NCBI RefSeq assembly: GCF_002288925.2
Contig: NW_022098002.1
Location: 1,998,295 to 2,062,294, forward strand
DNA from: Delphinapterus leucas
Taxonomy: Eukaryota > Chordata > Mammalia > Artiodactyla > Monodontidae
Length of the DNA stretch: 64,000 bases
Direction of reading: 5' to 3'
Notes under the pieces: generated by a model
The model's database searches: none
What the model was told of the DNA's origin: nothing
The model's input: the letters and a program-made list of their open reading frames with translations, nothing else
In this document: positions 6,691 through 55,300 of the stretch, piece after piece
Layout of the letters: each line of letters begins with the position of its first letter
Numbering within the stretch: the first letter of the stretch is position 1
Position numbers and translations under genes: made by a program

Positions 6691-6897
6691 TTTTTTTTTT
6701 TTTTGCGGTACACGGGCCTCTCACTGCTGTGGCCTCTCCCGTTGCGGAGCACAGGCTCCGGACGCGTAGGCTCAGCGGCCATGGCTCATGGGCCCAGCCA
6801 CTCTGCAGCATGTGGGATTCTCCCGGACTGGGGCATGAACCCATGTCCCCTGCATCGGCAGGCGGACTCTCAACCACTGCGCCACCAGGGAAGCCCC
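6691..6897 (-). mobile_element. CHR-type SINE 1
   Basis: A ~205 bp tRNA-derived SINE in reverse: poly-T, then the 'gcggtacacgggcc' body, ending in the complement of the gggcttccctggtggcgc head. It sits in antisense L1 sequence. This family is abundant in cetaceans and is the main taxonomic clue. Confidence 0.93.
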
Positions 6898-12633: not shown

Positions 12634-12848
12634 TTTTTTTTTTTTTTTTTTTTTTTGCGGTACACAGGCTTCTCACTGTTGTGGCCTCTCCCGTTGCGGA
12701 GCACAGGCTCCGGACGCGCAGGCTCAGCGGCCATGGCTCACGGGCCCAGCCGCTCCGTGGCATGTGGGATCCTCCCGGACCGGGGCACGAACCCGTGTCC
12801 CCTGCATCGGCAGGCGGACTCTCAACCACTGCGCCACCAGGGAAGCCC
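12634..12848 (-). mobile_element. CHR-type SINE 2
   Basis: ~215 bp including a long poly-T. Duplicated target TGTGAGCCTTTTTT flanks it (from 12626, and 12849 on). Same family and orientation as the 6691 copy. Confidence 0.93.
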
Positions 12849-19764: not shown

Positions 19765-19988
19765 GGCACAGCTCTGAGGGGAAAAAACCAGTTGTGTATT
19801 TTGGGGGCATTCTGAGCCTTCAGAAGGAAACCAGACATGTCCTTGGATGACATTAGGATGAGCTCTACTGAATTCCTGAGGCAGGAGGACCTGGACAGTG
19901 GGGGCTTCGGGAAGGTGTCTCTGTGTTTACACAGCTCCCATGGACTCGTGGTCCTGAAGAAGGTGTACACGGGCCCCAAGCGCACCGA
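19765..19988 (+). CDS. RIPK1: RIPK1 coding exon 1 (72 bases of 5'UTR, then CDS from 19837)
   Basis: Acceptor cttcacag ends at 19764, donor gt at 19989. The ATG at 19837 corresponds to human Met5; the human first ATG reads AGG here (19825-19827). Context is G at -3. Encodes the N-lobe start with the Gly loop, Ser21 (human S25, an inhibitory IKK site) and Lys41. Confidence 0.95.
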
Positions 19989-22900
19989 GTGAGTTGGGGG
20001 CAGAGGCAGATGGGCCACGTGACTGGCCAGGGCGGTGGATACGGGCAACACGGGCTTTAGAATGAGACAGATGGGGCGCAAGCGTCAGTACCCGGGCTTT
20101 ATGTCAGATAACCCTGAAGGGTGGATATTAACATCCTTGAATCGCTGATGAGGGTTCGGAGGCTGGCTAGGGAAGAGCTCAGGGCTGGTAAATAACGGAA
20201 GAAAGCTGAAGAGGAGGCAAAGAGAAAGGGAAGAAGACGCAGGGCAACGCAGGGGCCGCAGGGGCTGATGGAAAGGGAATGGGCGGGAGCAGGGAAGGCA
20301 TATGGATGCCCTTGCTTCACCGTGTTGGTGAGAACCAGCCCTAAGTACAGGAACAAAAAGCTGGTTCATGAGTTAGAGGTTCCAGGAACCCTCTCTTTAA
20401 GGCAGTTGGTGGCATTGTTTTACTTCCCTCTGTTCTCGCCAGAGTGGTTATGAGAGAGACCGCGTTTTTTATTACACTGTCCAGCACAGTCCTTTTTTCC
20501 GGCCGCATTTCGCTGCTGCTGTTCATGTATTGATACTTTGCGTTGATTCGTTCATCCGTGTAACATTTCTTGAGCACTCGCTGCTGGTCACTGGGAGAGA
20601 GGAATGTAGAGTGAACGAGCAACCGCTTCGCCTTCCGGAGCTTGTGGTCTGTGTCTGGTAGAGACCAGCACATGCACAAGGGGTGACAGAGCGTGTGCGG
20701 TGATGCTCCAAGGAATCCCAAGCCATGGCGTTTCTGGGGGCAGGAAGGGAGCAGGGGCTGCCTCTGTCTGCCTGAACCCCCTTCCCTCCCCCAGGTACGA
20801 TGAGGCCCTCCTGGAGGACGGCAGGATGATGCACAGGCTGCGGCACAGCCGCGTGGTGAAGCTGCTGGGCGTCATCATGGAGGACGGGAACTACTCGCTG
20901 GTGATGGAGTACGTGGAGAAGGGCGACCTCATGCGCGCGCTCAAGGCCCAGGTACCCAGGCCCGAGAGCGCGCCCTGCCAGCCCCTTGGTGCACAAGAAT
21001 CCTTTGTGAAAGGCTGGATATTCGGGATTTTCTAAAGTCAGTCCCTCATTAAATCTTCCTTGACTTTCCATGCCCAGAAGGTGGGCTCACCCTCCTCTCA
21101 GTGCCTACAGACAGGTGTCCATCCCTCTCTCGGAGGTCCCCGGGTCATCTCTAGGTCTCAGTGTTGTGGGAGGCTTTTGTCGGCCACTCTCAGATCCACA
21201 GTTCAGAGGCAGGCACTGTCTTTACAAAGCACGTGGTCTGATGGGGGGTGCATGCATAATGGATTACAATTAAATATTGATTGATTAAAAGATGTACACT
21301 ATAGGGCTTCCCTGGTGGCGCAGTGGTTGGGAGTCCACCTGCCGATGCAGGGGACACGGGTTCGTGCCCTGGTCCAGGAGGATCCCACATGCCGCGGAGC
21401 GGCTGGGCCCGTGAGCCATGGCCACTGAGCCTGCGCGTCCGGAGCCTGCGCTCCGCAACGGGAGAGGCCACAGCAGTGAGAGGCCCGCGTACCGCCAAAA
21501 AAAAGAAAAATAAGATGTACACTATAAATGACTGTATGAGAAGATGGAATATTAGTGATTGCATTTTGATGCCATTGAAGAAGCTTATAGGTTAAATATA
21601 GAACATTAGAATAACAATACTGGGTAAGGAAGGCTTAGAACAGGAAGGTTAATATTGCTTTTACCAAAGACAGATAACTTTAAAGCAGTTTTAAAAGTGT
21701 ACATACCTGTTAAGAGCAAGGCCTTGTGCTCTTTGCCCAGGGAGCAATAGCAAATGTGACACAGACAAGTAACGGGACAGGAAATGAACGATCTGGTGTG
21801 GTGTTGTTTTGATAGACACGCTCATAGCGAGCTCTGGGAACACAGAAGAGGGGCTCTCTCCCCAGCGTGGGATGGATGGGAAGGGACTCCAGAAGGAGGA
21901 GGCTGGAGCGGGAGTGTGACGGACAAGCAGAGGGTTTGAAGCAGAGAACTGGGGAGTAAGTCACCGTTCCAGGCAGAGGGAAGGGCACCAGCGAAGGAAC
22001 TAGAGCCTGGCCGGTGTGGGGAACGCAAAGAACTGGGGTGGGCACAGTAGAGAGTGCCCGCGGGGGAGCTACGACTGTCCTCATGCAGGTATTCCCCCCT
22101 CTTCCCGTCTTCTCCCCTCCCCGCCCCCCAGCTGCCTGAAGCTATGTCAGTTCTTCAGTTCTTTTTCAGCCGGACAAATCTCAGATAGTTGCGGGGAAAG
22201 GTAAACGATAGTCACTTACTGGTTGTATTGTAATTTGATCAGACTTCTCTTCTTCCCCATCAAGATATGATCTGTGAAGCAAGTAGGCATTTTGATTGGG
22301 AGATAAATCGTTTGGGACAAGAGACATCCTGTGGGATGGATCAGGCTAAGATAAGGTGCATCCGCTGGGGCTCAAGAAGAAATTCAGGAGGATATAAGGG
22401 AGACAAACAAAAAGAGGGAAAAAAGGGGGATCTACTTGGCATGCTCAGAATTTTTTCCCAAGTCCAAAGGTATACCAAGGACAAAGGCAGGATCTCTGGC
22501 CTTTTTTTTTTTTGTACGTGGTGATCAGGCCACTAATGCTGTAGTGCAGCCGCATTATGGCTGAAGATGTTTGGGGGGATTGACTTGGGAATCTAACTTC
22601 CATCATTTAAATTTTTTTCCTGTTTATCAGCAACTAACGTACACATAAATTTTTAGGAAACAGCCTATTTGTAAACTAGAGACTGCATACACATACACAC
22701 ACACACAGTGAGAGTTTGTGTTTTTCAATGTTAAGCAAAACTGTTTAATAGAAACTGAAATTGGCTGTATTAACATTGATATTCACATAACTAGAATACA
22801 ATTTTAAGTGAGAGTGACCCGAGAATCTACAAAGGCTTGACGTATCTGATACCAAATCACCAAACAGATGTTAAATTCACTTTAGCATTGTTTTAACCAC

Positions 22901-25900
22901 ATCGTGTCGTCTCATAGATTAATCTTTACGTTTTTTTTTTTTTTTTTTTTTTGCGGTACACGGGCCTCTCACTGTTGTGGCCTCTCCCATTGCGGAGCAC
23001 AGGCTCCGGACGCGCAGGCTCAGCGGCCATGGCTCACGGGCCCAGCTGCTCCGCGGCATGTGGGATCTTCCCGGACCGGGGCACGAACCTGCGTCCCCTG
23101 CATCGGCAGGAGGACTCTCAACCACTGCGCCACCAGGGAAGCCCTAATCTTTACATGTTTTTGATCAATGTGAGCACATTCCCTTGTATTCTTTTTTCTC
23201 TTAACCTTATTTCATACATACATTTTTATGACCCTGTTTACATATTTAATATATAGTAGCACATCATATTAGTACGCCATTGAGAATATTTGTGTTTTTT
23301 GTATATATATGCATTCATTCAACAAATATTACAGGCACCATGCAAGGTAGTCAGGACACATCTTAAGTAAATAATAATAATAATAATACAGTTTCATTCT
23401 CAAGGAGCTTAATTTTATAGCATTTTTGCATATTACCATGTTGGCGTGGAAGTTTTATTTGTACACTGACAAAGCACAGCACGAACACCCTCAGCAGTTG
23501 GGATGAAATCTCTCTTAAAGGGGGGCTTGTTTTGCAATGACAGCCGTGCTGCAGGGCCTGATAGAAGGAAACCTGGTCTCTCTGTCCTAAGGTTCAGACC
23601 CCACTACTCTTGAAGGAAACGTTTGCTTTGGCCTCTTTGATTACCTTTCCATTCACGGACTTACTATCACTCGTTTTAGATCAGTATCCCTCTCTCTGTG
23701 AAAGGAAGAATAATTATGGAGACCATTGAAGGAATGCGCTACTTACACGGAGAAGGTGTGATACACAAGGACCTCAAGCCTGAAAATATCCTCATCGATG
23801 GTGACTTTCACATTAAGGTAAACCATAGTCAAGGCTTCTGGAGGATTGGGGTAATTTTAGTTTTTAATTCTCCACTGTAAATCCATTTTCGGACATGATA
23901 CATGCTAAAAGAAGAGCTAGTGCAGCTCATAACTGGTAATGGTGGTGCCAGAAAGCTCTACCAAGGAAGGAAAAGCAAGATGCAGATTTGATGGAGTTGA
24001 TATTTTTTATTTATTCATTTACTTTCATCTCCTTTTTTATTTTTAGTATTTATGTATTTATTTATTTATTTGGCTGTACCCGTGGCATGCGGGATCTTTG
24101 TTGCCATGAGCGGGATCTTTAGTTGAGGTATTTGAGCTCTTAGTTCCCCGACGAGGGATAGAACCTGGGCCCCCTGCATTGAGAGTGTGGAGTCTTACCC
24201 GCTGGACCACCAGGGAAGTCCCATCATCTCCTTTTTCAAACTCAGTTTCCTGTTGAAAACTCTCTTTCCACTGTAGTAAAAGGAAGAAGGCAAAGGGTTT
24301 TTCTTTTGCTCACTCAAGAGCAAGCACTCACTAGGCGGAGCATCACATCTAGTTGGCTTTGGCAGCAGGAATCCAAGCGCAGGCATCTGAAAGGGGAGGT
24401 GGCGTCTGGGGGAGGGCTCGGGAACTGCTTACATAGGCATCCCTTCACCAGAAGATTCTGCTTCTCACACTCTGTTCTAGTCCTGGACGGGGGTTTTTAT
24501 TCCTGTGTCTTTAAAAGAAGGTTCTTCTTTACATTAATAACTTATCTGTTATGTTCTGGGTTAGAATTTGAGGATTTTAGGTAATCACATGCCAGAAATC
24601 ATCCCCAAATGCTTGGATTCCTTGAGGCAAAAGTGAAACTGTCACCTCTGATGTCTTAACTGTAGTGTTCTGTCATTCTGCCCTGCCGCCTCCCTCTTTG
24701 TTCCTGGTAGTTTTTCTTTGCTTTTTTGTCTGTTTTTCCCTCCTTCTCATCCCATCTTCTCTTAGGTTCAGGCTCCCGACTCAGAACAGGTAGCACTGCA
24801 GTCCTTATCCTCAGTGTTGGGATCCTCGGAAATTCGCGTCCTTGGGTTTCTGGACACCATTTGGGAAAATAGAAGATGCAGTACCATCTGCTCTACAAAT
24901 CTGCTGAGAAGAAAGTACCTGTTTTTTCCTAACCTCAGAAATAGTTGAAAAATATATGCAGAATAAATGAGGAATTAGAATGAACATGTTTTGTTGTGTT
25001 CATCTCAGAAACATCTTCTGCTTTTCTCACCCCACCCCCAGGTTTTATTGCATAAGAATTGAGATACCAGAATTTCACACAGACATTTCTGTTTTGTTTC
25101 TTTTTTTATAAATTTGTTTATTTAATTATTTATTTTTTGGCTGTGTTTGATTTTTGTTGCTGCGCGTGGGCTTTCTCTAGTTGCGGCGAGCGGGGGCTAC
25201 TCTTCTTTGCGGTGTGCGGGCTTCTCATTGCGGTGGCTTCTCTTGTTGTGGAGCACAGGCTCTAGGCACGTGGGCTCAGTAGTTGTGGTGCACGGGCTTA
25301 GTTGCTCCACGGCATGTGGGATCTTCCCGGACCAGGGCTTGAACCTGACACATAGACATTTCGTAAGGGAGATTTTCTAGATGGCTGAGGACCTACAGTT
25401 GCTACTGGCCTGTTCAGAAGTAGCTGTTTTAAACTTATCTAGTGCAACCATTTCTGGAAATGTTACTGTACCTCACATCTACTGAAGAAGCCCCAGATTT
25501 GAAGGCAAATCTCATTTGCTTGTAGCCTTCACAGAACAATCCCGTGGGTTTGCTCCCTTGCAGATAGCTGACCTTGGCCTTGCCTCCCTTAAGACGTGGA
25601 GTGAGCTGATGAAAGAGGAGCTTACTGCGCAGAGGAGAGGAAACAGCACCACGAAGAACGGCGGCACCCTCCACTACATGGCCCCCGAGCACCTGAACGA
25701 CGTCAGCTCGAGGCCCTCTGAGAAGTCGGACGTGTTCAGCTTCGCCATAGTGCTCTGGGCCGTCTTTGCCAACAAGGAGCCGTATGAAAGTAAGACAGTT
25801 TCAGAGGAGTGGGATTTGGGTACTAATCAAAGTTGTTCAACAGAATATGAGCCTTCAGTGAAGTCAGTTAAGATGTATCATTGTTTGTTCATTTAATGTC

Positions 25901-28900
25901 TGTCTTACCGACTGGACTATAAGCTCCACAAGGGCCAGGACCACATCTGTTCCATTCACTGCTGTTTCCCCAGTATCTACACATACAGTACCTGGAATGT
26001 AGTAGGTGCTCAGGAAGTGTTTGTTGAAAGAATGAGTCATCTCAGTTTAGGAATCAGGGATCGTAGGACAGGTAGGAGCCTTGGTAACGCGTCTAAGCTT
26101 GGGAGGTGCTGTAACATTCCATAATTCCTGCCGGACAGGAAGGCTTGCCGGCTTCTGCTTATGAGGGGTTAACCCTTTCAGGGCATACACTCCATACTTT
26201 CATTCGTCCCCTAATCCTTCATTCATTCAGAAATTGTTTCTTTTCAGTACTTACTGTGGGACTTTACTCAGAATTGAGAATATAAAGATGAGAAAGTCGT
26301 GGTTTGTGCAGGAGAACAGATGAGCCATTCTTCAGTCTGTTAAGTATCTAAACTAATGGACGTTCTCCTGCCCATTCTTCCTGGGTGATTATCAGCTCCC
26401 ATGGTTTAATGACCACCTCTTTGCTGATGCCTCCCAAATCTCCAGCCCTGGCCTGGATATCCACTTGTCTATTAGTCAGACCCAGTCCACGTACCAGGGG
26501 AACCCCAAAGCAGCGTCCCCCCAAAACAAAGCCATCTTCTCCGTGCTGTCCTAGTAGCTCATTCAGCTTTGCTCTTATGTTCAGAAAATGGAATCACCAA
26601 CCACCAACCGAGCTGCCCAACCGGAAATTTTAGTCATCCCATACTCAACCTTGCCCCTCATCTCCCACATCCCATCAGACACCAAAACCTATGAATTCGG
26701 GACTTCCCTGGTGGTCCAGTGGTTAGAACTCCTCACTTTCACTGCTGAAGGCCCAGGTTTAATCCCTGGTCGGGTAACTAAGATCCCGCAAGCCACGTGG
26801 CGTGGCCGGGAAAAAAAACAAAAAACAAAAAAACAACAACTGTGAACTCAAGGTGTATCTGATTCAAGGTACATCCACTTCTCCCCATCCCCCACAGGGC
26901 CCTCACTAGGTCAGACCCTCTGTGTTTCTATGGCAGTCTCCTCACACCGCCTGCCATTCACACTGCAGCCAAACTGCTCGACCTAAAAAGCAAGTGAGAC
27001 CGTCTCACTCATCTGTTTAAAATCCTGCCAAGGCACCCTTGACATTCAGGGTAAAGTTCAGATTCCTCAGTGTGGAGTACAGGGTCCTTTCTGATTTGGC
27101 TTTTGTTTCTCTCTCTAACCTTATTCCTTCCTCACTTCCTTTAGTCAATATGCCCAGTTACACTGAACTATTCATAATTTCTGGGATGCATCATGATTTC
27201 TGCAACTTCCAGTCTATTCATATCCTGCTTTCTTAGCCTGGATCCTCCGCTCTGAATCCTCCTTCCCGCTTCTTTACCTGGATAATTCCTGCCTATTGTT
27301 CTGCACTCAACAAAGCCTTCTCTGACCTTCTAGTCGTGGTCCTGTTACCAGAACCCTTTGTACTTACTTCTCGAATAGCCATTATCACTCTACATTTTAA
27401 GTCACTCTTATTAAACTGAGCTCCTCCAAGGCAAGCGCTGTCCCGTATTTGTCTTTGTATGAAAATCTGGAGTGTGGCATTGGCTTTATTCACATATTCC
27501 ATTTGTTCTACGAGGAGTCAGCTTTGCTGTGAATTCTCTCTTTCATCTGCAGAAACTAAAATGCTGTTTGATCATCTCCTCAGTGGAATTCATCAGCTCG
27601 TTGTCACAGGGCCGTTCTGCCCCTGCTGGATGCGGCAGCCGTACTGGAAGCGTCCGCTAGGCAGAGAGGCTTTGTCCGAGTTCTGTCGCCTCCCTGCCTG
27701 AGAGGAGCAGGGCTGAGAGCTCAGCTTACGCTCCTCTTTGTTTCATAGACGCTCCCTGTGAGCAGCAGCTGATCCTGTGCATTAAGTCTGGGGGCAGGCC
27801 GGACGTGGAGGACATCACGGGGCAGTGCCCGCGGGAGGCCGTCAGCATCATGAAGCAGTGCTGGGCGGTGAATCCAGAAGATCGGCCGACGTTTGCTGGT
27901 GAGCATCTTCCGTGGCTGCACGGCCTCCGCGTGGTGATCTTCCTAGTGAGATGCCGACAGGAAGTTGCTTTGAGTTTTTAGAAAACTGAGTTCCACTTGT
28001 GATTTCAACTGATTTTCTAGGTTCCAAACACTTTGTTTAATGAAAAGTTGTCATCCCTCCCCAGAGCATGAAGGCATATAAGGTCCTCTTGTTTCTTTGT
28101 GGGGTTTTTTCCCCCATAATTAACTTTTTAAAAATTGGGTTAGAATATACGTGACACATAATTTACCATTTTAACCATTTTCAGGTGTACAGTTGAGTGA
28201 CATTAAGTACATTCACAATGGTTGCACCCATCACCACGATCCGTCTCCAAAACTTTTTCATCTTCCCCAGCTGAAACTGTATCTATTAAACAATAACCCC
28301 CCCATCTCCTCTCCCCCAGCCCCTGGCACCCATCGTTCTACTTTCTGTCTCTCTGAATTTGGCTACTCCGGGACCTCATGTAAGTGGAATCACACAGTAT
28401 TTGTCCTTTTGTGACTGGCTTATTTCACTGTGCACAGTATCTTCAGGGTTCATCCACGTTGTAGCCTGTGTCAGAATCTCCTCCCTTTTCACTGCCGAGT
28501 GGTACTCCGTGGTATGTAGACCACATTTTGTCTATCCATTCATCTGCTGAATGGGTTGCTTCCACAGGCCTTCTTATTTCTTAGCTTTTATTTCATTTCC
28601 CTTCCCTTGTGAAGCTGGCATCTCTGGAAATGTGATTTTGTCATTTGGATTGGGCCAATAATAGAAGGAGAAGGAAAGGGACATGGGCATCTCACATCCG
28701 TGTACCTCTTCTCATTCCCTTGTGTTGCCCAGGATCTTGCTAAAGTCCTAGAGGCAGAGGAAAGAAGAAAATCAGAGGAAAGGGGCAGAGGAAATAAGAA
28801 AATCAGGTGAGGAAAAAATAAATAGCAGGAAGGAACGTAGGAGCCTACAAAGGATTTTGCTCTCGTATTTCTGCTATGAGAAAACAGAATTGAAGCCCTA

Positions 28901-31900: not shown

Positions 31901-34900
31901 CGGGAGTCTCAACTCCCCACTCAGTCTTTGCTGGTGGGGGTGGGGGATGGAGTCATGATTTTTCTATGGCATTTCGCTGGAGAGTGGTTATGGACTACGC
32001 ACTCTGTCTTGCTAGGCTTCCCCTTGCTTAGCCCTCTGGCCAGAAAGAACAGGCTTTTTTTTTTTTTTTTTTTTTTAAGAACAGGCTTTTGTTGGGCTTT
32101 TTTGTTGGGTTGCTAGCTTCTTCAGGTCCAAGTCTGAGATCTGTGCAGCAAAAAAAAAAAAAAAAAAAATCCAGTAAGCTCACTGCCATGTCTTTCCTCA
32201 GATCCCAAAGTCCCTAGCTAGTCTGACTTTGTCTCTCCTCCTTTCGGTCTCCTTATGTTTGTTTTATATATAATATAACATATAGGGGTTCTTGTCATAC
32301 TTAGTGGGAGAAATAAGGAAAAGTATGTCTATTCCATCTTCCCAAAAATGGAAATTACATTTTTCTTTTAAGGCCAACAGCTCTAACTTTATACCAGATC
32401 CTTATTCTGAGTGTTCCACCCTATAGTAACTCAGATGCCAAAGGGACAGAAACAAGGAGTCCACCCATCTTTTTTCATTTGGAAATTAACTCGTATTAGG
32501 TAGGGCTTTGTGCTGCAGCCAGAGAAACTGTCTATTATTAGGCAGGAGTCCTGGGTTTCCAGTGATATCCTATCCTTCGTTCTGTCTGTGTAATAGTCTT
32601 GTTAGTCTCTTTATGAAAGTCAGTGATTTGGCATTTAAGTTTATATTTCCCTGCTTTGCCCACAGATTACGGTAAGTAATTCAAAGATAATAGATTGGTA
32701 ATATTTTAATTTTATTCTAGAAAATACTTAAGAAATTTAAAGTACTATTTTTTTTATATATAGGCATTGAAGAGAAATTTAGGCCTTTTTATTTAAATCA
32801 ATTAGAAGAACATGTAGAAGAGGATGTGAAGAGTTTAAAGGTAGGTAACATAGCAGCTGCTCAAAACGCTAACATATTGAAGCATATATATTGTCAGTCA
32901 TGAAAACCAAAGCATTATACTTTATTACTGAGATTTGAGGTAACCTAGCTTGGTAACCACAAAAAACAAAATAGGCAGTTTTATGCAGATATCATCAAGT
33001 TAGCATACCAGACCCGTTCCTCTGTCAAAACTAATGAAATGAGAGAAAATATATCACCAATATGAAAACAAAAGCACAACATTACTGGAACAGGATGGAA
33101 AGTACCATAGGTGGGTCAGTCATTTTGAGGAATTCTTGAAAGATAAAAAGCCAACAGAATTATTTATATCTGTTGAGACATAAAACAGGAAAAAAGTTTT
33201 AAAAGGCTGCCCCAAACATGATAATCAAGAAGTCACAGAGGAAGACGTCTCGGGTCAGCGTGTAGAAGAAGTGGGTGGTCACACGGGACGTTGGTAGGTG
33301 TCGTCATTTGGGAGCCATGGTTGTGTCAGTTTTAAAAGTTGGCTCCTCCCTCCTCACGTCTTGTGCTAAAGCAGCAGATGGAAGCAGCATGTGCCAAGGG
33401 CCGAAGCAGTGAGTTTGGTGCCTGAGATCAGAGAGGTATGTCAGAGACTCTTGCCAACTAACCAACCAAGAGGAACAGAGACCTCCCCTCCTCACACACT
33501 CAGGAAACAAGCTGTTATCTTAAGTCTTACAGCAACATGCTGCTATAATCGTGAAAGGGAGACTACAGTAAATAAAACAGGCAGGCAGACAGAGATTTTA
33601 AGATATACACACACACACACACACAGTCAGATAGTCAAGAATTGCCAGGCTGGCCATCATCAAAAAATCTACAAACAATGAATGCTGGAGAGGGTGTGGA
33701 GAAAAGGGAACCCTCTCGCACTGTTGGTGGGAATGTAAATTGATACAGCCACTGTGGAGAACAGTATGGAGGTTCCTTAAACTAAAAATAGAACTACCAT
33801 ACGACCCAGCAATCCCACTACTGGGCCTATACCCTGAGAAAACCATAATTCAAAGAGTCATGTACCACAATGTTCATTGCAGCTCTATTTACAATAGCCA
33901 GGACATGGAAGCAACCTAGTGTCCATCGACAGATGAGTGGATAAAGAAGATGTGACACATATATACAATGGAATATTACTCAGCCATAAAAAGAAACAAA
34001 ATTGAGTTATTTGTAGTGAGGTGGATGGACCTAGAGTCTGTCATACAGAGTGAAGTAAGTCAGAAAGGGAAAAACAAATACCGTATGCTAACGCATATAT
34101 ATGGAATCTAAAATAAAAGTTCTCATGAACCTAGGGGCAGGACAGGAATAAAGACGCAGGCATACTAGAGAATGGACTTGAGGACATGGGGAGGGGGAAT
34201 GGTAAGCTGGGATGAAGTGAGAGAGTGGCATGGACATATATACACTACCAAACGTAAAATAGATAGCTAGTGGGAAGCAGCCGCATGGCACAGGGAGATC
34301 AGCTCGGTGCTTTGTGACCACCTAGAGGGGTGGGATAGGGAGGGTGGGAGGGAGATGCAAGAGGGAGGGGATATGGGGACATATGTATATGTATAACTGA
34401 TTCACTTTGTTATAAAGCAGAAACTAACACACCATTGTAAAGCAATTATACTCCAATCAAGATGTTAAAAAAATTAAAAAAAAACAAAACAATTGGCAGA
34501 CTTTGGAGGGATACCTACACTATAAAAGAGAGGCATCCAGTGCAAACCAAGGAAGTCATCAGAAGGACATCAGGAAAGATAGTCACTGAGGAAAAAAAGC
34601 ATTGCCACAGCAATCAGGAATGATTCATAACAATAAAAGTTTCATTTCACCAAGAAGGTAATAACAGCTTTAAGTATGTTGACCCTTGAACAACACAGGT
34701 TTGAACTCCATGGGTCCACTTATACACAGATTTTTCTCAATAAATACGTACTACATGATCTTTTACTTGGTCGAATTCATGACGTGGAACCACAAATACA
34801 GAGGGCCAACTGTAAAATTATACTTGGATTTTCGACTGTGAGGGGGTGAGCACCCCTAACTCCCATGTTGTTCAGGGGTCAACTGTATAATTTAGCAAAA

Positions 34901-37900: not shown

Positions 37901-40900
37901 ATCTGTATGTCTTCTTTGGAGAAATATCTATTCAAGTCCTTTGCCTGTTTTTGAACTGGGTTGTTTCTTTTTTGTTGTTGAATTATAGGAATTCTTTATA
38001 TAATCTGGATATTCATCCCTTATATTTATGTGATTTACAAAAATTTTTCCCTACTCTGTGGGTTGTCTGTTCTCTCTCTTGATAGTGTCCTTTGATGTAC
38101 AGAAAGTTTTAATTTTGATGTAGTCCAGTTACCTATTTTGTTGCCTGTGCTTTTGGTGTTATAGCCAAGAAATCATTGTCAAATCAATGCCATGAAGTTT
38201 TTCCCCTATGTTTTCTTCTTATATAAGTTTAGCTCTTAAGCTTAGGTCTTTGATCCATTTGAGGTAATTTTTATATATGTTTGTGTATGTTGAAAGGTAA
38301 GGATCTAACTTCATTCTTTCACATGTAGATACCAGTGTTCCCCCACTGAAAGGTCGTGGCCCCCTTGTCAAAAATCAATTGGCCAGGGACTTCCCTGGCA
38401 GTCCAGTGGTTAAGACTTGGTGTTTCCACTGCAGGGGGCAAGGGTTCCATCTCTGGTTGGGGATCCCGCATGCTGTACGGCAAAAGTAAATAAATAAATA
38501 ATAAAAAATAAAAATAAAAAATCAATTGGCCATATATGCAAGGGTTTATTTCTGGGTTCATTATATTCCATTGGTCTGTATGTCTTTCCTTAGGCCAATA
38601 CCACACTGTTTTGATTACTGTAGCTATGTAGTGAGTTTTGAAATCAGGAAGTGTGAGCCCTCCAACTTTGTTCTTTTTTAAGATTGTTTTGGCTGTTTAG
38701 GGAAAAGAGTTTATTTTCTTAAAGAAGTATTTACTGCTTGTAAGAGCTATGTGAAATTTCTACCTTCTGAAAAATTCGTTCTTCCTTACAACAATTTTCT
38801 GGAATTTTTTGGCCAACCCAGTATTTTCTGCTGTTTACTAAAGTATGTCTTTATGTTCTTAATTCTAGAAAGAGTATCTGGGCCAAAATGAAATTGTAAA
38901 GAGAATGAAGTCTCTCCAAATTGGTTGCGTAGCAATGTCTCCAAGCAGGTCAAATTCAGGTAACTTATACTGTGATTGAAAATCTATTTATTCACTTATT
39001 TGTTTGTTCATTCACTCACTGTACTGTCTAAAAGGCTATTTACAACTATATGAGAAACAGAAGAAGCTATAAAATATAACAGCTGGCTTAAAGGACTTTC
39101 TAATATATTCGGAGTTAAGGTACAAATATTTGAGATATTAGGTAACAACATGTTCACCAAAATCATAAAGTATCCTGAACACAAGAGGCCTAATATATCT
39201 GATAGGGAGGAAGTGACAGCTCAGGAAAAAGACGGGAACCTATGTGGGAGCAAAGTCCTTGAGAAGGTCAGGGATGACTGGGTCCAGAGTACATGCAGAG
39301 AGGTTGGCCTCAGATTCAAGCAGGGATACTTTTTTCATTTAACAGAAGGGAAAGCAGAGTATAGGATATTGAAGCCACTTATCAGCTGTCTGTTCTGAGG
39401 CACATCACTTGACTTCTTGTAAGCCTCATCCATCATTGTAGTAATAAGTGTTCCTACTCTTATAGGGCTTTTAAAGAATAAAAGAATCCACAGAAGTGCT
39501 TAGCTCAGAACTGCTGCCATTCTTATTTTCCAGCCCTGCGTCACAACAAGGGGACACCTTCTCTGCTCCAACACAAGTCCTTTTCTTCCTTGGTCATTCC
39601 TACAACACCCACTTTTCTGCTGCTTTGTTATAACTTCTCTCATGCTCTCACACTGCCAGGCAGGGACGGCTGCTTATTACCTGTGTAACTCACAGGAGGA
39701 AAAGCACCTGGTAAACGCTTTTTCTTTGTTCTCAGAGTTTTCAGTGTGTTACTCCAAGGTACAGATTCATGACTGTGCTCAGGTTTTTACTCTTAACGTT
39801 TCATGAAACTCTTTCTGACGCTGATTCATTTGTTTTCAGCCGCAGAACAGCCCAGTTCGCTGCACAGTTCACAGGGATTCGGGCTGGGTCCTGTGGAGGA
39901 CTCCTGGTTCGCTCCCGCCCCCGAGCAGCAGCAGCAGCAGGAGGAGGACCTCCTGCTGCACAGTAAACTCCAGGAGGAGGCCAACTACCATCTTTACGGC
40001 AGCCGCATGGACAGGCATACGGAAGAGCAGCCCAGACAGAATGTGGCTGACAGGAGACAGGAAGAGAGGAGACGGAGGGTCTCCCATGACCCTTTTGCAC
40101 AGCAGAGACCTTATGAGAATGCTCAGAACCCAGGGCTGAAAGGCCTTGCTTATTCCGGTGCAACCAATCATGGTAGTGCGGTACAGCAACCAGCAGGGCT
40201 AACCAGCCAGCCCCAGTTACTGCACTGGAGAAATGGATTGTGTACATCACTCGGTTTTGGAGCAAGACCAGTGGATCTGAGAACCGCAGGTCCAGGAGTT
40301 TGGGATGGGCCAAATCCAGGCCACATGCCAAGCCTGTATAAAACTCCAGTGCCTGAGACCAACCTACTGGGAAACACACCCACCATTCCATTCAGCTCCT
40401 TCCCATCAAGAGGTAAACAGGCCTTTCAGTCACACTGTTCTATTTTTTAACCTTTCCTGAAAATAAAGCAGCCATTAGCTCTGTTGTAGACTATAAGTGA
40501 ACAAAGGACAAGCGGTTTGGGGTCTTCAGCCACCAGACACACCTTGCCTTCTCGGAATAAGTCTCCATCAGACCACCTGGCCTAGGCTCTTGGTTTGGGT
40601 AGAAGTCAGTGCAGCTGCCCACAAGTGTCAGGCCACAGGTCTTTGCATCTAGTAGGCATCTTCCACTCTAACCCGAATCTCAGTAGCTCCACTATGTCTG
40701 ATCTCTGATGTAAGTGAAGGTATCTGCTTGTATTCTTCCGCTTGCTTGCTGTTTTCTGAAGGTAAGAAATGAATCTTGGATGTTTTCATTTTTTGTCTCA
40801 TATAGGCCAGAGACTACCACTGGTGATGAACACCACGTTGTTGGGTAACCACCACCACCATCCACCTCCAGAACCCTTTCTTCTTCCCAAACTGAAACCG

Positions 40901-43718
40901 TACCCATCAGACAATAACTCCCCATTCTCCTTCCTCCCAGCCCCTGGCAACCACCCTTCTACTTTCTGTCTCTATGAATTTGATGGCTCTAGGGACCTCA
41001 TATAAGTGGAATCATATGGTATTTGTCCTTCTGTGACTGGGTTATTCACTGAGCACAATGTCGTCAAGGTCCGCCCATGTTACAGCCTCCGTCAGAATTT
41101 CCTTCTTTTTTAAGGCTGAATAGTATTCCATTGTGTGGATGGACCACATTTTGTTTATCCATTCATCGGCTGTGGGACACTTGGGTGCCTTCCACTTTTT
41201 GGCTATTATGAATAATGCTATGCACATGGGTGTATAAATACCTGATTGAGACCCTGCTTTCAGTTCTTTGGGGTATATACCCGGTAGAATTGCTGGATTG
41301 TATGGTAATTCTATTTTTAATTTTTTGAGGAACCACCATACTGGTTACCACAGTGGCTGTACCATTTTGTATTTCCACCAGCAGTGCATACGGGTTCCAA
41401 TTGCTCCACAACTTTGCCAACACTTATTATTTTCTATACTTTTGATAGTTGCCATCCTAATGGATGTGAGCTGATTCAGCCACCTTTTAAAGAAGAAAAT
41501 TTCAAAGGGTGGCATAGGATAAATAATTTAACTTAAGCATTTGGAGTAAAGCCCTGCCCCTTTACCACGTAGTACTTTTTTCTCTTGCTTTCAGTCTAGA
41601 TGTACTTACCTGTGTGTTTCTCTCTAATCAGATGAGTCTTTAAAATATGGCATATACAACAGTTTTGGCGTTCAGATTGGAAACAATAATTATATGGAGA
41701 TTGGCGGAATGAGTCCATTGGTACTGGACAGCACGTACATGAACTTGAAAGAAGACCCAGCTTCTAAGTACCAAGATATCTTTGGTAAGATGCCCTTGAA
41801 GGACCCATCTATAGTAACCTTGAACTGTCTTATCTAATATTTCACTGATTATTCTCTGTGAAAGTGCCCTATCTTTCCTCTCTAAAATAGCGCTGTAATT
41901 TCCGTGTAATTGCTTTGTAACTTATTTATGTTTACTGTGGAGATAATTAGAATATCTAATTCATGGATTTGCTGTGAAAGTTAAACGAGTCAATATGAAT
42001 AAAGAGCTCAGTACACTGCCTGGCACACTGTAAGATATACAAGTGTTAAACACACCGTCATCATCACCGCGTCAGTATTAGTACCTAGACCTAGCAGCAG
42101 TAGCTCCCTCAGGTCCTCGTCCAAAGGGATTCTGTAAAAGATAGAAGACGATGCCCTCAACTGCACATGCGTAATAAAATAAGAGGGCTTTCTCTTGTGG
42201 CGTTCCACTATGCAGCCTCGTAACATTAATCCCAAAACGCAACCTGGGAAAAGCAGTCACGAGGCCAAAGCAATGTGATTTAAGAACCCAGCTTTCTAAT
42301 TAACCCTAGGATGGGCAATTTTTTTAAATCAAGGGCCAGGTAGTAAATGTTCTAGGCTTCACTGGTCCTGAGGTCTCTGTCGCAGCTACTCAGCTAACAC
42401 TGTAGTACAGTAGCAGCCACAGACAGTATGTACACGAACGGGCGTCGCTGTGTTCTAATAAAACTTGGTTTACAAAAACAAGCAGCGGGCTGGATTTGGC
42501 CCATGGGCCATAGTTTGACAATCCCTGGTCTAACCCATTTGAAGGCTAGTCTTTAAAATCTAGAGCCGAAGTTCCTAATTTTGGAGGTGACAAGGGTACC
42601 TTTGAGAATCTGATGAAACCCAGGGTCCCTCTCCTGGCGAAGCGTTGACAGAATTTTGGACGCCTGACGTCCAGTGGTGATGGCAGAAGCTGCACTGTGG
42701 GGAGTTGGGGTAAAATGAGGTGTCTTTTTTCTCATATTCAGCTTACTGAGGTCAGACGAGGATCAAGAAATTGGGTTTGTTTGTGGTGTTTTGGTGGTTT
42801 TATACTTTTATTTTGCTTCATTTTATTATTTTTACGAAGGCCTGAGAGGAAGGAACAAGTAGAAAGAGAGAGGTTATGGCTGTAGGAGGAAAGAGGACAG
42901 CACTTGGGGTAGGGGAGAGAGAAGTCCAAAAATACCTCATCCATTAAAAGACAAGGGAAGGCAGCGTAATGAAACCAGCTCACAGCCGGTGGTCTCAGTT
43001 TCCTTGATTAAGTGAGAGGAAAGCAAACTGTTGGGTGAAGGGTATCCTGAGTTGAATGACCTCAACTCTGGCCCGATGTAAGTGGAAAATGCCCAAAAGG
43101 AACAAAAATGGTGTCTTCCCCCTTTACATCAGGAATGTGTGATATAAACAAGGGCTGTGTCTCAGGTTGTACAGTACAGCCTAGTAACCAGAGGGGTTTT
43201 GCTCTCTAAGCCTCGGGCTGTGCCTCAGACCTGCACCTCCCGGGGCGGGGGAAGAGGTTCCTCCACGTGGGCTGGCAGACAGGTAAAGTATCAACCGATG
43301 ATCCCACAGCCATAGCATGAAGAAGTTATCTTTTTCACCGTCTCCTGGGACTCTTCACTTTATACAGGTCTTTGAAGCTAGACGTTCAAATGGCCATAGC
43401 TTGATGCCTTCTTCTCTTTTCTATTTGGCAGATAATACCACTAGTCTGACTGATAAACACCTGGACCCAGTCAGAGAAAATCTGGGCAGGCAGTGGAAAG
43501 ACTGTGCCCGTAAGCTGGGCTTCTCCCAATCTCAGATTGATGAAATTGACCATGACTATGAGCGAGATGGACTAAAAGAAAAGGTTTACCAGATGCTCCA
43601 AAAGTGGCTGATGAGGGAAGGCAGCAAGGGGGCCACCGTGGGGAAGCTGGCCTGGGCGCTCTACCAGTGTTCCAGGGTAGACCTGCTGAGCCACTTGACA
43701 CACAGCAGCCAGAACTAA
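19837..43718 (+). CDS. RIPK1: RIPK1, receptor-interacting serine/threonine kinase 1 (complete, 10 coding exons)
   Basis: Exons 19837-19988, 20795-20951, 23680-23817, 25564-25789, 27749-27898, 32764-32840, 38869-38959, 39840-40412, 41632-41784 and 43432-43718 join to 2004 bases, 667 residues (human 671), with no stop and GT/AG at every junction. RIPK1 acts in TNFR1/TLR complexes as an NF-kB scaffold and as a kinase driving apoptosis or necroptosis. Kinase domain (~13-285): Gly loop with S21, Lys41, HKDLKPEN with Asp134, DLG at 152-154. The intermediate region has the ubiquitin-acceptor Lys373 (human K377), the RHIM core is VQIG at 535-538, and the death domain spans ~579-665. The start is set by an in-frame TGA at 19813 and by conservation of Met-Ser-Leu. 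The human caspase-8 site Asp is Gly319. Confidence 0.97.
19989..20794 (+). other. RIPK1: RIPK1 intron
   Basis: Short GT-AG intron without recognised repeats. A diverged MIR-like stretch near 20050-20200 is possible but not convincing. Confidence 0.7.
20795..20951 (+). CDS. RIPK1: RIPK1 coding exon 2
   Basis: 157 bases, joined through a split Glu codon (ga|g). Encodes the alphaC helix region and the hinge (SLVMEY), very close to human. Confidence 0.96.
21304..21511 (+). mobile_element. CHR-type SINE 3
   Basis: Full-length in sense orientation from gggcttccctggtggcgc to an A-rich tail. Perfect 15-base target duplications at 21289-21303 and 21512-21526. Confidence 0.96.
22931..23144 (-). mobile_element. 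CHR-type SINE 4
   Basis: Reverse copy with a long poly-T. Target duplications TAATCTTTAC at 22920-22929 and 23145-23154. Confidence 0.95.
23680..23817 (+). CDS. RIPK1: RIPK1 coding exon 3
   Basis: 46 codons in phase 0, with the catalytic loop His-Lys-Asp-Leu-Lys-Pro-Glu-Asn; Asp134 equals human D138. Confidence 0.97.
24038..24223 (-). mobile_element. Older CHR-type SINE
   Basis: Reverse SINE with an (ATTT)n tail. Target duplications TCATCTCCTTTTT at 24025-24037 and 24224-24236. Confidence 0.88.
25090..25348 (-). mobile_element. Older SINE, truncated head
   Basis: Reverse SINE body ('ttgctgcgcgtgggctttctc', 'ccacggcatgtgggatcttcc') that stops before the usual head. Imperfect target copies (acacagacatttc / acacatagacatttc) flank it. 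Confidence 0.75.
25564..25789 (+). CDS. RIPK1: RIPK1 coding exon 4 (activation loop)
   Basis: Starts with the Asp-Leu-Gly motif; serines matching human autophosphorylation sites S161 and S166 are kept. The activation loop is one residue shorter than human. Ends in a split Asn codon (a|ac). Confidence 0.97.
25895..26045 (+). repeat. LINE2 3' end
   Basis: 'tataagctccacaagggccagga', 'ccccagtatctacac', 'tagtaggtgctcaggaagtgtttgttgaa' are the standard L2 3' phrases, diverged. Confidence 0.75.
26380..27460 (+). repeat. LINE2 3' region, interrupted by a SINE
   Basis: Diverged L2 sequence on both sides of the SINE at 26699-26840, including 'cttctctgaccttctagtc' and 'gagctcctccaaggcaagc' near its 3' end. 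Confidence 0.6.
26699..26840 (+). mobile_element. Older CHR-type SINE
   Basis: Starts gggacttccctggtggtccag and ends in A-rich sequence; inserted in L2. Confidence 0.85.
27749..27898 (+). CDS. RIPK1: RIPK1 coding exon 5 (kinase C-lobe)
   Basis: 150 bases with split codons at both ends. Encodes the Cys-Glu-Gln-Gln-Leu helix and the Arg-Pro-Thr-Phe motif that closes the kinase C-lobe. Confidence 0.96.
28100..28560 (-). repeat. Old L1 fragment, antisense
   Basis: 'atttaccattttaaccatttt' and 'gtacagttgagtgacattaag' phrases, also found near 37140, 40850 and 47300, mark a reversed L1 segment. Confidence 0.6.
28990..32350 (-). mobile_element. Long antisense L1 sequence
   Basis: Reversed L1 from a T-rich 3' end near 29000 through ORF2-like DNA rich in stops to about 31350, perhaps to 32350. 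Interrupted by the SINE at 29381. It contains poly-T/poly-A tracts near 29341, 32046 and 32150. The upstream limit is uncertain. Confidence 0.55.
29381..29552 (+). mobile_element. Older CHR-type SINE nested in antisense L1
   Basis: Starts ggaattccctggcggtccag, tail rich in CAA. Near-identical 14-base target copies at 29367-29380 and 29553-29566 (one mismatch). Confidence 0.9.
32764..32840 (+). CDS. RIPK1: RIPK1 coding exon 6
   Basis: 77 bases, entered through a split Gly codon (g|gc). Encodes the end of the kinase domain (Lys-Phe-Arg-Pro-Phe) and an acidic Glu-Glu-Asp-Val-Lys stretch. Its own frame is short, so it is found only by splice sites and homology. Confidence 0.94.
33607..33626. repeat. 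(CA)n microsatellite
   Basis: Ten or so CA units directly before an L1 3' fragment. Confidence 0.85.
33650..34485 (+). mobile_element. 5'-truncated L1 3' end (cetartiodactyl type)
   Basis: Runs from the 'ggctggccatcatcaaaaaatc' part of ORF2 to 'attatactccaatcaagatg' and an A-rich tail. ~80-90% like the copies at 35830 and 50646 by eye. ORF2 part carries stops. Confidence 0.85.
34678..34883. mobile_element. MITE with inverted terminal repeats
   Basis: Ends GTTGACCCTTGAACAAC and GTTGTTCAGGGGTCAAC are inverted copies with one mismatch over 17 bases, near TA dinucleotides at both sides. About 206 bp with no coding capacity. Structure is that of a Tc1/mariner-superfamily (Tigger-like) MITE; the family name was not checked. 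Confidence 0.8.
34895..35250 (+). repeat. L1 ORF2 fragment, degraded
   Basis: 'gaatcagtcctgcaagaaaattcc' and 'aagctgaatccatcaatggac' fit degraded L1 ORF2. Many stops. Confidence 0.5.
35830..36800 (+). mobile_element. 5'-truncated L1 3' end
   Basis: ORF2 tail open for ~180 codons up to 36390, then the L1 3'UTR and an A-rich end near 36785-36800. Truncated at the 5' end, so not mobile. Confidence 0.88.
37095..38720 (-). mobile_element. Antisense L1
   Basis: Reversed L1 starting with the 'taaaatttaccatcttaacc' phrase, interrupted by the SINE at 38386. Confidence 0.65.
38386..38517 (+). mobile_element. Older CHR-type SINE nested in antisense L1
   Basis: Starts gggacttccctggcagtccag, tail of TAAA units. 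Perfect 15-base target duplications at 38371-38385 and 38518-38532. Confidence 0.93.
38730..38825 (-). repeat. Possible mariner end
   Basis: 'ttttttggccaacccagta' near 38806 is the reverse of a mariner-type terminal sequence. The rest of an element is not visible; it lies about 45 bases before RIPK1 coding exon 7. Confidence 0.35.
38869..38959 (+). CDS. RIPK1: RIPK1 coding exon 7 (caspase-8 site region, altered)
   Basis: 30 codons plus one base. Encodes [12 protein letters not shown]. The human counterpart has Leu-Gln-Leu-Asp324-Cys, where caspase-8 cleaves after Asp; here codon 38923-38925 is GGT (Gly319). The exon contains no Asp codon. The MK2-site serine (human S320) is kept as Ser315. 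Confidence 0.95.
38960..39839 (+). other. RIPK1: RIPK1 intron without recognised repeats
   Basis: GT-AG intron of 880 bases. No gene, RNA or clear transposon noted. Confidence 0.75.
39840..40412 (+). CDS. RIPK1: RIPK1 coding exon 8 (intermediate domain)
   Basis: 573 bases, the large intermediate-domain exon. Contains the ubiquitin-acceptor Lys373 in Ser-Lys-Leu-Gln, the conserved [12 protein letters not shown] block, and a Gln5-Glu2-Asp tract from five CAG codons at 39926-39940. Confidence 0.97.
40413..41631 (+). other. RIPK1: RIPK1 intron with antisense L1
   Basis: GT-AG intron; 40845-41480 is reversed L1, the rest is unassigned. Confidence 0.75.
40845..41480 (-). repeat. Antisense L1 fragment
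   Basis: 'ataagtggaatcatatggt', 'gctgaatagtattccattgtg' and 'tttgaggaaccaccatactgg' are reversed L1 phrases. Confidence 0.65.
41632..41784 (+). CDS. RIPK1: RIPK1 coding exon 9 (RHIM)
   Basis: 153 bases entered through a split Asp codon. Encodes the RHIM with core Val-Gln-Ile-Gly (human IQIG) and the following Asn-Tyr-Met-Glu-Ile-Gly-Gly. Confidence 0.97.
41785..43431 (+). other. RIPK1: RIPK1 last intron
   Basis: Contains a MIR-like piece near 41950-42080 and the interspersed repeat at 42305-42530; the remainder shows no gene. Confidence 0.7.
42305..42530. repeat. Ancient mammalian interspersed repeat (probably a DNA-transposon relic)
   Basis: 'aagggccaggtagtaaatgtt', 'ggtctctgtcgcagctactc' and 'gctggatttggcccatgggcc' form a widespread mammalian repeat. 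I remember the sequence but not a safe family name. Confidence 0.55.
43432..43718 (+). CDS. RIPK1: RIPK1 coding exon 10 (death domain)
   Basis: 287 bases ending in TAA at 43716-43718. Encodes the whole C-terminal death domain that binds TNFR1, TRADD and FADD, including the invariant [10 protein letters not shown] segment. Confidence 0.97.
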
Positions 43719-49253: not shown

Positions 49254-49475
49254 GGGCTTCCCTGGTGGCGCAGTGGTTGAGAGTCCGCCTGCCGATGCAG
49301 GGGACATGGGTTCGTGCCCCGGTCCGGGAGGATCCCACATGCCGCGGAGCGGCTGGGCCCGTGAGCCATGGCCGCTGTGCCTGCGCGTCCGGAGCCTGTG
49401 CTCTGCAACGAGAGAGGCCACAACAGTGAGAGGCCCGCGTACCGCAAAAATAAATAAATAAATAAATAAATAAAT
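49254..49475 (+). mobile_element. CHR-type SINE 5, nested in L1 ORF1
   Basis: Full-length sense SINE with an (AAAT)n tail. Target copies AGCAAACA at 49246-49253 and 49476-49483. It interrupts the coiled-coil part of ORF1. Confidence 0.93.
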
Positions 49476-52270: not shown

Positions 52271-52395
52271 ATGGCGGCGGCGGCGGCGGCGGCGGCGGCG
52301 CAGGGCCTGTGGGGCGCGCGGCGGCTGCGGCTGTTCCTCTCCACGCTGAAGCCCGGGATACACGTTCCCCAGGCTGAGCCCGTGGCTGCGTTCAG
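52271..52395 (+). CDS. BPHL: BPHL coding exon 1
   Basis: ATG followed by nine GCG codons (52274-52300), then a targeting-type sequence. Donor gtaatg at 52396. Ends in a split Ser codon (ag|c). Confidence 0.93.
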
Positions 52396-55300
52396 GTAAT
52401 GGCGCCGCTCCCCTTCGGGAGCCTCGGCGTCGTTGTCCGCGCGCTCGGGGCGGCGTGAGGGGAGCCGCTGGCCAGGGGCCGGGCTGAGGACACGCGTGGT
52501 CATGGCCTCCCCGGCCCCTTGCCCTTTAACCCGTGACCCGAGCGCGGGGGGCGGGGCGGTGCGCTGGGCCGAGGTGCGGCGCCGGGAGCGGCGAGGGTCC
52601 GGCGGTGGGAGACCCTCGCTCCCGGCCCGCGTTCCGCGCAGCCCTTCACGCCTGTGGGCAGTGCTCGCGCGCGCTCCTGTCAGGCCAGCCTGGCAGTGCC
52701 TGCGCCCCATCAGCTCTCGGAGTCGCGGGCCCCAAGGCCCTGGGTCTCCTTCGCCCCACTTGCCCGCCTCGAGCTTTAATGTGCAGAAGAATCACCTCGG
52801 GAAGCGGGGAGATGGCTCCCCGAGGTGCTGAGGGCACAGGTTGTGGAGACGCCCAGGAATCTGCCTTTCTGTCTTGTGACATGCCCTCCCGCACAGGCTT
52901 TGAGATACAGCAGCAGCAAGAAAAGTAGATCCGTCTCTGACCCACAGTCTTAAAAATGGGTGCTGTCGGTCTCACGGGAGAGTACGCAGGATATGCGGTT
53001 GGAGCAGCGTGAACACACACACACACACACACAGACACACACACACCCCCTCGTGAGCTGGGTCAGTTCCACTCATGACTAGGAAGGTACCTGGCCTTCA
53101 GAACTTCACCTGTTGGGAAGCTTCTCATTTGAAAGGAGAAAGGAAAGATCTGACCATGCAGCTCTGTAAGTCAACGTTGAAAAATGCCGATTTATCCAGT
53201 GTCCCATTTGCAGAAAGGGATTGAAATGGGGTTCCTGTGATGGCACCAGTATCGGTTACGATAAGTTATTAAATGATTGCAAGAAGGCCCCATCCACTTA
53301 GCAGTGCAAATCATTCCTCCTAAAATATCTCTGAAAAACAGGTTTCTCTGGATTTTCAACTGCCGTTTTTATAAATGCAGTTGCAAATTGATATGACCTG
53401 TGATGGGGAAAACAAGCAGTGGTGTTGGTTAATCCGGAAACAAGAAGGCAGTCCAGCGTTAAGTAGGTAAAAGCACTCCTGTAAGACCTTTGCTTCAGAA
53501 CAGCGGGTGCCTAACCTACAATTGAGTTGCATTCCAAAACCTTCCCTGTAAGTCTGCTGTTTGGAACTCTGACTCTTTGTATTTCATAATCTGCAAAGTG
53601 GTTTATCCCAGGGCCTGGGCAGGAAAGCCTTTTCCACCTGAAATTGTGTGTTACGTGCATTTACAATATTAATAACTTTACAGAACCTAACAGCCTGCCT
53701 GAAGAGAGATGTTTTCCAGTTCAACCTGGGGATGCTCTGTCTGAGCATCAGAGACCCGCCTTCCCCTGGCGCCTGCCTCACCTTCTGTCCAGCAGTCAGG
53801 GTGAATGTGGCCCCGGTGCCGAGCCCCGCTGGGGACTGTTCAGCCGTGAGGTTACAGAAAAAGCATCAACAGGAGCGAGTTATTTACCCTCTCTAAGTCT
53901 CGTGCCTTGCAGAATTGTTCCGAGGGTTTGAGACAATGAGTGTAAAAGGCCTGGGGCATAATAGGAATTAAGTAATTAGTAGTTACAATTAATAATGATA
54001 CAAATATGAATATCTAAATAATAATACAGTGTATAAAAGATGTAAAAATAAGTCCTCCAAATTCATGTTAATCCAAGCCCTGGGCATCGCTAGTGCTTTA
54101 TTGTAGCTAATGGTTACTTTGGAAAAAATGTACAAAAGAAATAGCTGAACATACAAGGTACAGAGAATATGGAGGACTTATTAGGTGGCCCCCATTTTAA
54201 TTTCTAAGCAAAGTGTGACATTCCAGCTGTGGACATTCAGGCGCTCATTTTGGCTTTGCAAGTTACCAGCAGAGTGACTGGGGCCAGTTACCTAAGCTCT
54301 ATTCCTCAGCGGTAAAATTAGGTTGAGTCTAATGTGCATCACACAGCAAAATGAATGAGATAAGTAAGCTCTTATCAGAGGACATTATCTAGTTTAACAA
54401 TTAAACTGTATGTTAGTTCTAGTTTAATTCTTCGCCCCAGATGGTTACATTCTTGCCTGCTCCCACAGGGATCTCTCCCTCCTGACGGGAGGGGGCAGCT
54501 CAGCTCCCTCATCAGGAAGTACTTGCTGTTGTATTGCTCCTGACCCCTTCCCTTCCACAAACTTGCTTGTCCAGCCTCCCAAAAGGAGGGATTCCAGGAC
54601 AAAAGTGAGGCAGGATCTGGGCTCTTCTGGCTGAGCAGGCCTTCCTGCAGGCTGTTTTTTAAAAAGTAGACAGGATTTTTCTCTCCTCTAAGAAATTAAC
54701 TCAATACAATCTTTCTCAACCTCGGTTGTCTATTGGAGTCTCTTGGAGAATTTAAAAACTACAGATGCCTGGGTCCCAGCCCAGAGATTTTGATTTAATG
54801 CAGCTTGGGCATCTGGAGATTTGAAGGTTTGCCAGATGATTCAAATCTAAGTTTGAGTCCCACTGGTATAGTGGGGGCAGGAAATGCTCTCGTAAAAAGG
54901 GGCCGAGCGTGTAGCTGTGTAGGTGTTGCTGAGGGTGTGGTGAACGTGTTGTCTGCTGCGTGCACCCCAGTGTCTCCTCATACTTGGCAAAGTGCGTAGT
55001 ACTGCTGGTTGCAGATTGAACTGTCTTCCCTGCCACCTGCCAGGCAACATGGAGCACCCAGCCCAAAGTAGGGGTTCAGGATATACGTGAACGAGTGAAT
55101 AATATTTCAGAGTTGCGGTGTTTTAGAAAGCACATGCCACGGCTCTACCCCAGAATTGCTGAGTGGGTCTCCCAGGATTGTCCCAGGCAGGTGTATTTTT
55201 TTCTTTTTTTTTTTCTTTTTTTGCGGTACGCAGGCCTCTCACTGTTGTGGCCTCTCCCGTTGCGGAGCACAGGCTCCGGACGCGTAGGCTCAGCGGCCAT

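Follow-up and report, generated by a model that had tools for sequence, protein, structure and literature searches.

Glycine at the caspase-8 cleavage aspartate of RIPK1 in a beluga genome with broken RIPK3 and MLKL

This analysis concerns RIPK1 in a stretch of 64,000 nucleotides, referred to below as the window, from a single assembly of one individual of the beluga, Delphinapterus leucas. A complete RIPK1 gene was found there on the plus strand, with ten coding exons, 667 codons and no internal stop, and its codon for the caspase-8 cleavage aspartate, Asp324 in human, specifies glycine. The gene was located with a human RIPK1 probe, whose ten matched coding pieces together span the protein. 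The human sequence used for comparison agrees by eye with Protein Data Bank (PDB) chains outside the region from human 324 to about 495. The codon at human Met1 (19825-19827, plus strand) reads AGG, so that translation would begin at human Met5, four residues further on; residue numbers for the window protein count from that methionine, and human numbers are given separately. The coding exons are as follows.

19837..19988, plus strand: RIPK1 coding exon from the ATG at human Met5; kinase N-lobe, with Ser21 (human Ser25) and Lys41 (human Lys45)
20795..20951, plus strand: RIPK1 coding exon with helix C
23680..23817, plus strand: RIPK1 coding exon with the catalytic loop HKDLKPEN
25564..25789, plus strand: RIPK1 coding exon with the DLG and APE motifs; Ser157 and Ser162 correspond to human Ser161 and Ser166
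27749..27898, plus strand: RIPK1 coding exon, kinase C-lobe
32764..32840, plus strand: RIPK1 coding exon, end of the kinase domain; VEED-V the same as in human
38869..38959, plus strand: RIPK1 coding exon 7, human residues 306-335; Ser315 and Ser330 (human Ser320 and Ser335, MK2 sites) kept
39840..40412, plus strand: RIPK1 coding exon 8, intermediate domain; human Lys377 retained as Lys373
41632..41784, plus strand: RIPK1 coding exon 9 with the RHIM (PF12721); VQIG core at 41670-41681
43432..43718, plus strand: RIPK1 coding exon 10, death domain (PF00531) and stop codon

This gene is a genuine, syntenic RIPK1 orthologue. All nine introns have GT-AG ends, the window contains no N, and in the 2.35-Gb assembly a query of 201 bases spanning exon 7 matches a single place. 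Pfam places an N-terminal kinase domain (PF00069 at residues 17-275, PF07714 at 16-279), the RHIM (PF12721, 529-543) and a C-terminal death domain (PF00531, 581-662) in one protein. Identity to human RIPK1 amounts to 204/289 residues in the kinase region, 168/239 in the intermediate region, 12/18 in the RHIM stretch and 75/89 in the death domain. Probes placed the end of NQO2 upstream, at 246-2185, and exons of BPHL downstream, at 52313-62135; NQO2-RIPK1-BPHL is what we take to be the gene order in human and mammals. The possibility of a retrocopy was ruled out by the ten exons, the nine GT-AG introns, the NQO2 and BPHL flanks and the single match in the genome.

The sequence-only reading had proposed that the caspase-8 aspartate is glycine here, and this is borne out. 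Codon 38923-38925 (plus strand) is GGT, encoding Gly319, and aligns with human Asp324, the P1 residue for caspase-8. Exon 7 has an AG acceptor and a GT donor, aligns without gaps to human 306-335, and contains no aspartate at all. The number 319 arises because the protein starts at human Met5 and one residue of the activation segment, upstream of Gly319, is deleted. In PDB chain 4neu_A (333 residues), the window protein aligns through chain residue 332 (Leu323), and mouse Asp325 aligns to residue 333. Since the P1 aspartate is gone, we infer that caspase-8 cleavage at the human Asp324 position is lost. The substitution is of the type found in cleavage-resistant RIPK1-induced autoinflammatory (CRIA) syndrome, in that Asp324 is replaced while the kinase domain, RHIM and death domain are kept.

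Gly319 could also be a rare allele, a heterozygous variant or an assembly error in this individual, with the species carrying aspartate, an explanation we rate as very unlikely. The evidence comes from one assembly, and a single transition would suffice if the ancestral codon was GAT, as we presume the human codon to be. Against this stand the N-free window, the clean open gene and the single match in the genome. Heterozygous human carriers of Asp324 changes are ill (PMC8215710), which suggests selection against such an allele where necroptosis works, although perhaps not here.

Other control sites of RIPK1 were largely preserved. Among 33 site labels, six (S332, K584, K612, C257, C268 and C586) fell off the named human letter and were dropped; 23 of the remaining 27 placeable sites are identical to human, the differing ones being E63D, S296H, D324G and I539V. 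Ser25, Ser320, Ser335, Lys115 and Lys377 are kept, as are Lys45, Asp138, Asp156, Ser161 and Ser166 in the kinase (human numbering). Loss of the Lys377 ubiquitin site, suspected from a neighbouring Lys-to-Glu change, was rejected, as numbering shows Lys377 to be a different lysine, which is kept. I539V lies within the RHIM core, whose motif is V/I-Q-V/I-G (PMC12119088).

A further difference of interest lies in the kinase, at a helix-C glutamate position that is nearly invariant among protein kinases.

20817..20819, plus strand: Asp59 (GAC) in place of human Glu63, helix C, by direct alignment to a PDB chain

Lys45 and Glu63 form the canonical ion pair of RIPK1 (PMC7206119); Glu63 belongs to the catalytic triplet (PMC9554302, PMC5635128) and is directed toward the active site (PMC9092956). 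Within the triplet Lys45-Glu63-Asp156, the lysine and aspartate are kept and the glutamate has become Asp59, so the triplet is incomplete through a conservative substitution; the catalytic Asp138 and the autophosphorylation sites Ser161 and Ser166 are present. As aspartate retains the charge on a shorter side chain, the active state of the kinase may be weakened.

The linker between the kinase and the RHIM lacks human Asp324 and Asp380, and it holds four aspartates without a human counterpart.

39899..39901, plus strand: Asp351 (PVED-S), where human has Glu; candidate for a relocated caspase site
39947..39949, plus strand: Asp367 (QEED-L), human without Asp there
40049..40051, plus strand: Asp401 (NVAD-R), Tyr in human
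40304..40306, plus strand: Asp486 (GVWD-G), Tyr in human

A cut at any one of these residues would still part the kinase from the RHIM and death domain. The off switch might therefore have moved, with caspase-8 cutting between kinase and RHIM at Asp351, Asp486, Asp401 or Asp367. We regard such a relocation as unlikely, even though CASP8 pieces in this genome are open (see below) and the human site itself, LQLD-C, is presumably not an optimal caspase-8 motif. None of the four aspartates combines Glu at P3 with Leu, Ile or Val at P4, the caspase-8 motif, and gains of aspartate are expected by chance in a fast, disordered linker that also lost human Asp380. Furthermore, the four were judged against human and mouse only and may predate this lineage. 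Relocation to VEED-V is countered by the presence of that stretch in human RIPK1, in which D324 changes alone block cleavage (PMC8215710).

The sequence-only reading had proposed comparing the status of partner genes in the same genome. MLKL was matched in four pieces (contig C13:12917800-12927000), with a TGA at amino acid 29, a frame change near amino acid 84, a TAG at amino acid 139 and a further stop in a later piece; amino acids 157-344 found no match at this locus. In RIPK3 (contig C45:44308000-44314000), the reading frame changes in the exon for about amino acids 227-281, with TGA and TAA a few codons further on; the stretch at about amino acids 95-115 can be read only by shifting frame, and the frame changes again near amino acid 380. 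A TAA in one RIPK3 piece was rejected as a lesion, as it falls at the exon end; the lesions are the frameshifts, of which there are at least two. MLKL and RIPK3 are thus pseudogenes in this genome, a disruption that conforms to the necroptosis-deficient pattern of cetaceans. Near the end of RIPK3, a RHIM-like GVQIG core can still be read despite the frame changes.

The apoptotic side presents a different picture. CASP8 was recovered on contig C85 in pieces covering amino acids 1-137, 139-199 and 205-477, the matching having left out amino acids 138 and 200-204 and the last two residues. No stop interrupts the exons of these pieces, in which both catalytic residues, His (SHG) and Cys (QACQG), are preserved. 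CASP8 loss was accordingly rejected as an explanation for the pieces found, where an apparent TAG is the splice acceptor before amino acid 139 and an apparent TAA lies within the donor after amino acid 435. In FADD, two exons are open, with 83% and 63% identity to the human protein, and from these sequences the FADD-CASP8 arm seems to remain. Because the CASP8 pieces are open and Asp324 is glycine, caspase-8 appears to have been retained while its site in RIPK1 has gone. The matched exons of ZBP1 (C37:5379847-5385289), from about amino acid 14 to 361, also look open and keep the first RHIM core, IQIG; a TGA in one piece was rejected as a lesion because it precedes a CAG acceptor. As ZBP1 looks open in a genome whose RIPK3 and MLKL are disrupted, it may serve another role here.

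These losses have precedent. Agueda-Pinto et al. (2021) described an MLKL lesion in exon 1 that cetaceans share, most species also lacking exons 2-5 (PMC8445033). The lesion is common to mysticetes and odontocetes (PMC8445033) and is therefore old. RIPK3 frameshifts vary among cetaceans, with exon 6 affected in two delphinids and exon 8 in others (PMC8445033); RIPK3 loss is also reported in the sperm whale (PMC9573974). Necroptosis has been lost convergently in cetaceans, leporids and others (PMC8445033).

Taken together, these findings lead us to a tentative preference, which falls somewhat short of an even chance: the Asp324 site was lost, and its loss is tolerated through the loss of RIPK3 and MLKL together with a kinase weakened by Glu63Asp, leaving RIPK1 mainly as a scaffold. 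Under this account, caspase-8 would no longer separate the kinase from the RHIM and death domain at Gly319. The change would be tolerated since the circuit through which uncleaved RIPK1 kills is damaged at other points, with neither a RIPK3 scaffold nor an MLKL executioner. The RIPK1 kinase would most likely be weaker, the helix-C partner of its catalytic lysine being aspartate. RIPK1 would then act chiefly as a scaffold at TNFR1, held in check through its retained phosphorylation and ubiquitin sites. Extending this to the whole cetacean lineage, with a fixed uncleavable RIPK1 made safe both in cis (Glu63Asp) and in trans (RIPK3 and MLKL loss) and serving mainly as a scaffold, is in our view rather doubtful.

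Human and mouse genetics provide the measure of this account. That a D324 change causes disease in human and that the homozygous mouse equivalent is lethal, as the sequence-only reading had stated, agrees with the literature: the CRIA alleles D324N/H/Y/V make heterozygous carriers ill (PMC8215710), and homozygous Ripk1 D325A mouse embryos die from about embryonic day 10.5 (PMC8389420). Kinase inactivation carries such mice to postnatal day 8 and Tnfr1 loss to postnatal day 10 (PMC8389420; commentary PMC8407551). Combined loss of Casp8 and Mlkl allows them to reach adulthood, and loss of Fadd and Mlkl also rescues further (PMC8389420). Of the candidates, mouse genetics favours reduced RIPK1 kinase output most, and Glu63Asp is a physical candidate for it.

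Several points weigh against the account preferred here. Ripk1 D325A/D325A embryos survive no better when Mlkl is deleted, and without Ripk3 their death is put off to embryonic day 16.5 and not beyond, which argues against RIPK3 loss as a sufficient rescue (PMC8389420). Even mice whose uncleavable RIPK1 is also kinase-dead survive with multi-organ inflammation (PMC8215710). The window kinase may in fact be active, given that Lys45, Asp138, Asp156, Ser161 and Ser166 are kept. Decay of the kinase by evolutionary rate was considered and found no support. Compared with mouse, unique changes (window:mouse) numbered 39:25 in the kinase (5-289) and 40:67 elsewhere (Fisher p = 0.004; permutation test p = 0.0021). 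Against human, the corresponding counts (window:human) were 36:22 in the kinase (17-289) and 40:20 elsewhere (p = 0.70), and this control removed the mouse signal. The kinase-versus-rest contrast gave p = 0.0097 for window and mouse and p = 0.006 for mouse and human; it belongs to mouse, whose intermediate domain is fast. The rate contrast comes from mouse, so a single residue, Glu63Asp, carries the argument about the kinase. Finally, the evidence for fixation consists of one cetacean genome, compared with human and mouse sequences.

The earlier proposal that loss of RIPK3 and/or MLKL compensates for the lost site therefore stands in part. The site is lost and both genes are broken, as published for cetaceans; as a sufficient explanation, the proposal is not supported, given mouse genetics and the open FADD and CASP8 pieces. 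RIPK3 and MLKL loss would explain the tolerance only partly. Since loss of Mlkl or Ripk3 fails to rescue the mouse and the FADD-CASP8 arm looks open, either further compensation is needed or the mouse is a poor guide. The same evidence bears on a simpler scenario of relaxed constraint, in which the absence of RIPK3 and MLKL made the site cheap to lose, RIPK1 required no additional change and Glu63Asp is incidental. Both genes are broken in the same genome, the cetacean MLKL lesion is old (PMC8445033), and no kinase-specific acceleration was seen against human. However, this scenario meets the same absence of benefit from Mlkl loss and mere delay from Ripk3 loss in mouse (PMC8389420), along with a FADD-CASP8 arm that looks open, and we consider it improbable.

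Mouse RIPK1 keeps this aspartate, which speaks against the view that Asp324 is unconstrained in many mammals beyond primates and rodents and that the beluga change is an ordinary one. We find that view highly improbable, although it draws support from Fay et al. (eLife 2025), whose introduction states that caspase cleavage sites of RIPK3 and RIPK1 are altered in specific mammalian lineages and who report positive selection on ungulate RIPK1 (PMC12119088). The RIPK1 site change may already be known to those authors. Among the matches listed in a literature search whose scope left most subscription papers outside, no title or abstract opening was found that describes a cetacean RIPK1 Asp324 change.

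In the beluga gene, nature has run an experiment at a position where substitutions kill mice and cause disease in people. Two questions that are tangled in the mouse can be told apart here, namely the importance of cleavage without necroptosis and the need to restrain RIPK1 kinase output. It also bears on how TNF signalling is rewired in animals without necroptosis.

The window additionally contains six CHR-type short interspersed nuclear element copies, at 6696-6896, 12648-12848, 21304-21504, 22944-23144, 49254-49454 and 55216-55414. These six, out of 10 CHR matches, are at 94-97.5% identity to the consensus, which suggests recent activity. Searches of the window for the ruminant Bov-tA tail and for pig PRE-1 gave no matches; the full Bov-tA consensus gave 11, all 11 falling within its first 85 bases, a head that CHR has as well. 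Taken with the MLKL and RIPK3 lesions, this repeat content points to a cetacean-like genome, with hippopotamus also compatible.

The beluga gene can be set beside four known cases. It resembles human CRIA syndrome in that the same residue is replaced by one unusable by caspases in an otherwise intact RIPK1. It differs in that the CRIA alleles occur in heterozygotes, the passage that lists them does not include Gly (PMC8215710), and RIPK3 and MLKL are functional in human, whereas in the beluga Gly is the allele of the assembly and accompanies disrupted RIPK3 and MLKL genes. With mouse Ripk1 D325A it shares the loss of the P1 aspartate; homozygous mouse embryos die, whereas the beluga change is found in an animal genome that also has Glu63Asp and linker aspartates absent from human. 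Fay et al. likewise describe RIPK1 and RIPK3 caspase-site changes in some mammals, but the RIPK1 lineage and residue are unnamed in the portion of the article available (PMC12119088). With the cetacean pattern of Agueda-Pinto et al., the beluga genome shares an early MLKL stop, missing later exons and a frameshifted RIPK3, the lesions being compared by pattern rather than exon by exon. That study treats RIPK1 as conserved, the strings "D324" and "cleav" being absent from its main text (PMC8445033); in the beluga, RIPK1 itself has changed at Asp324.
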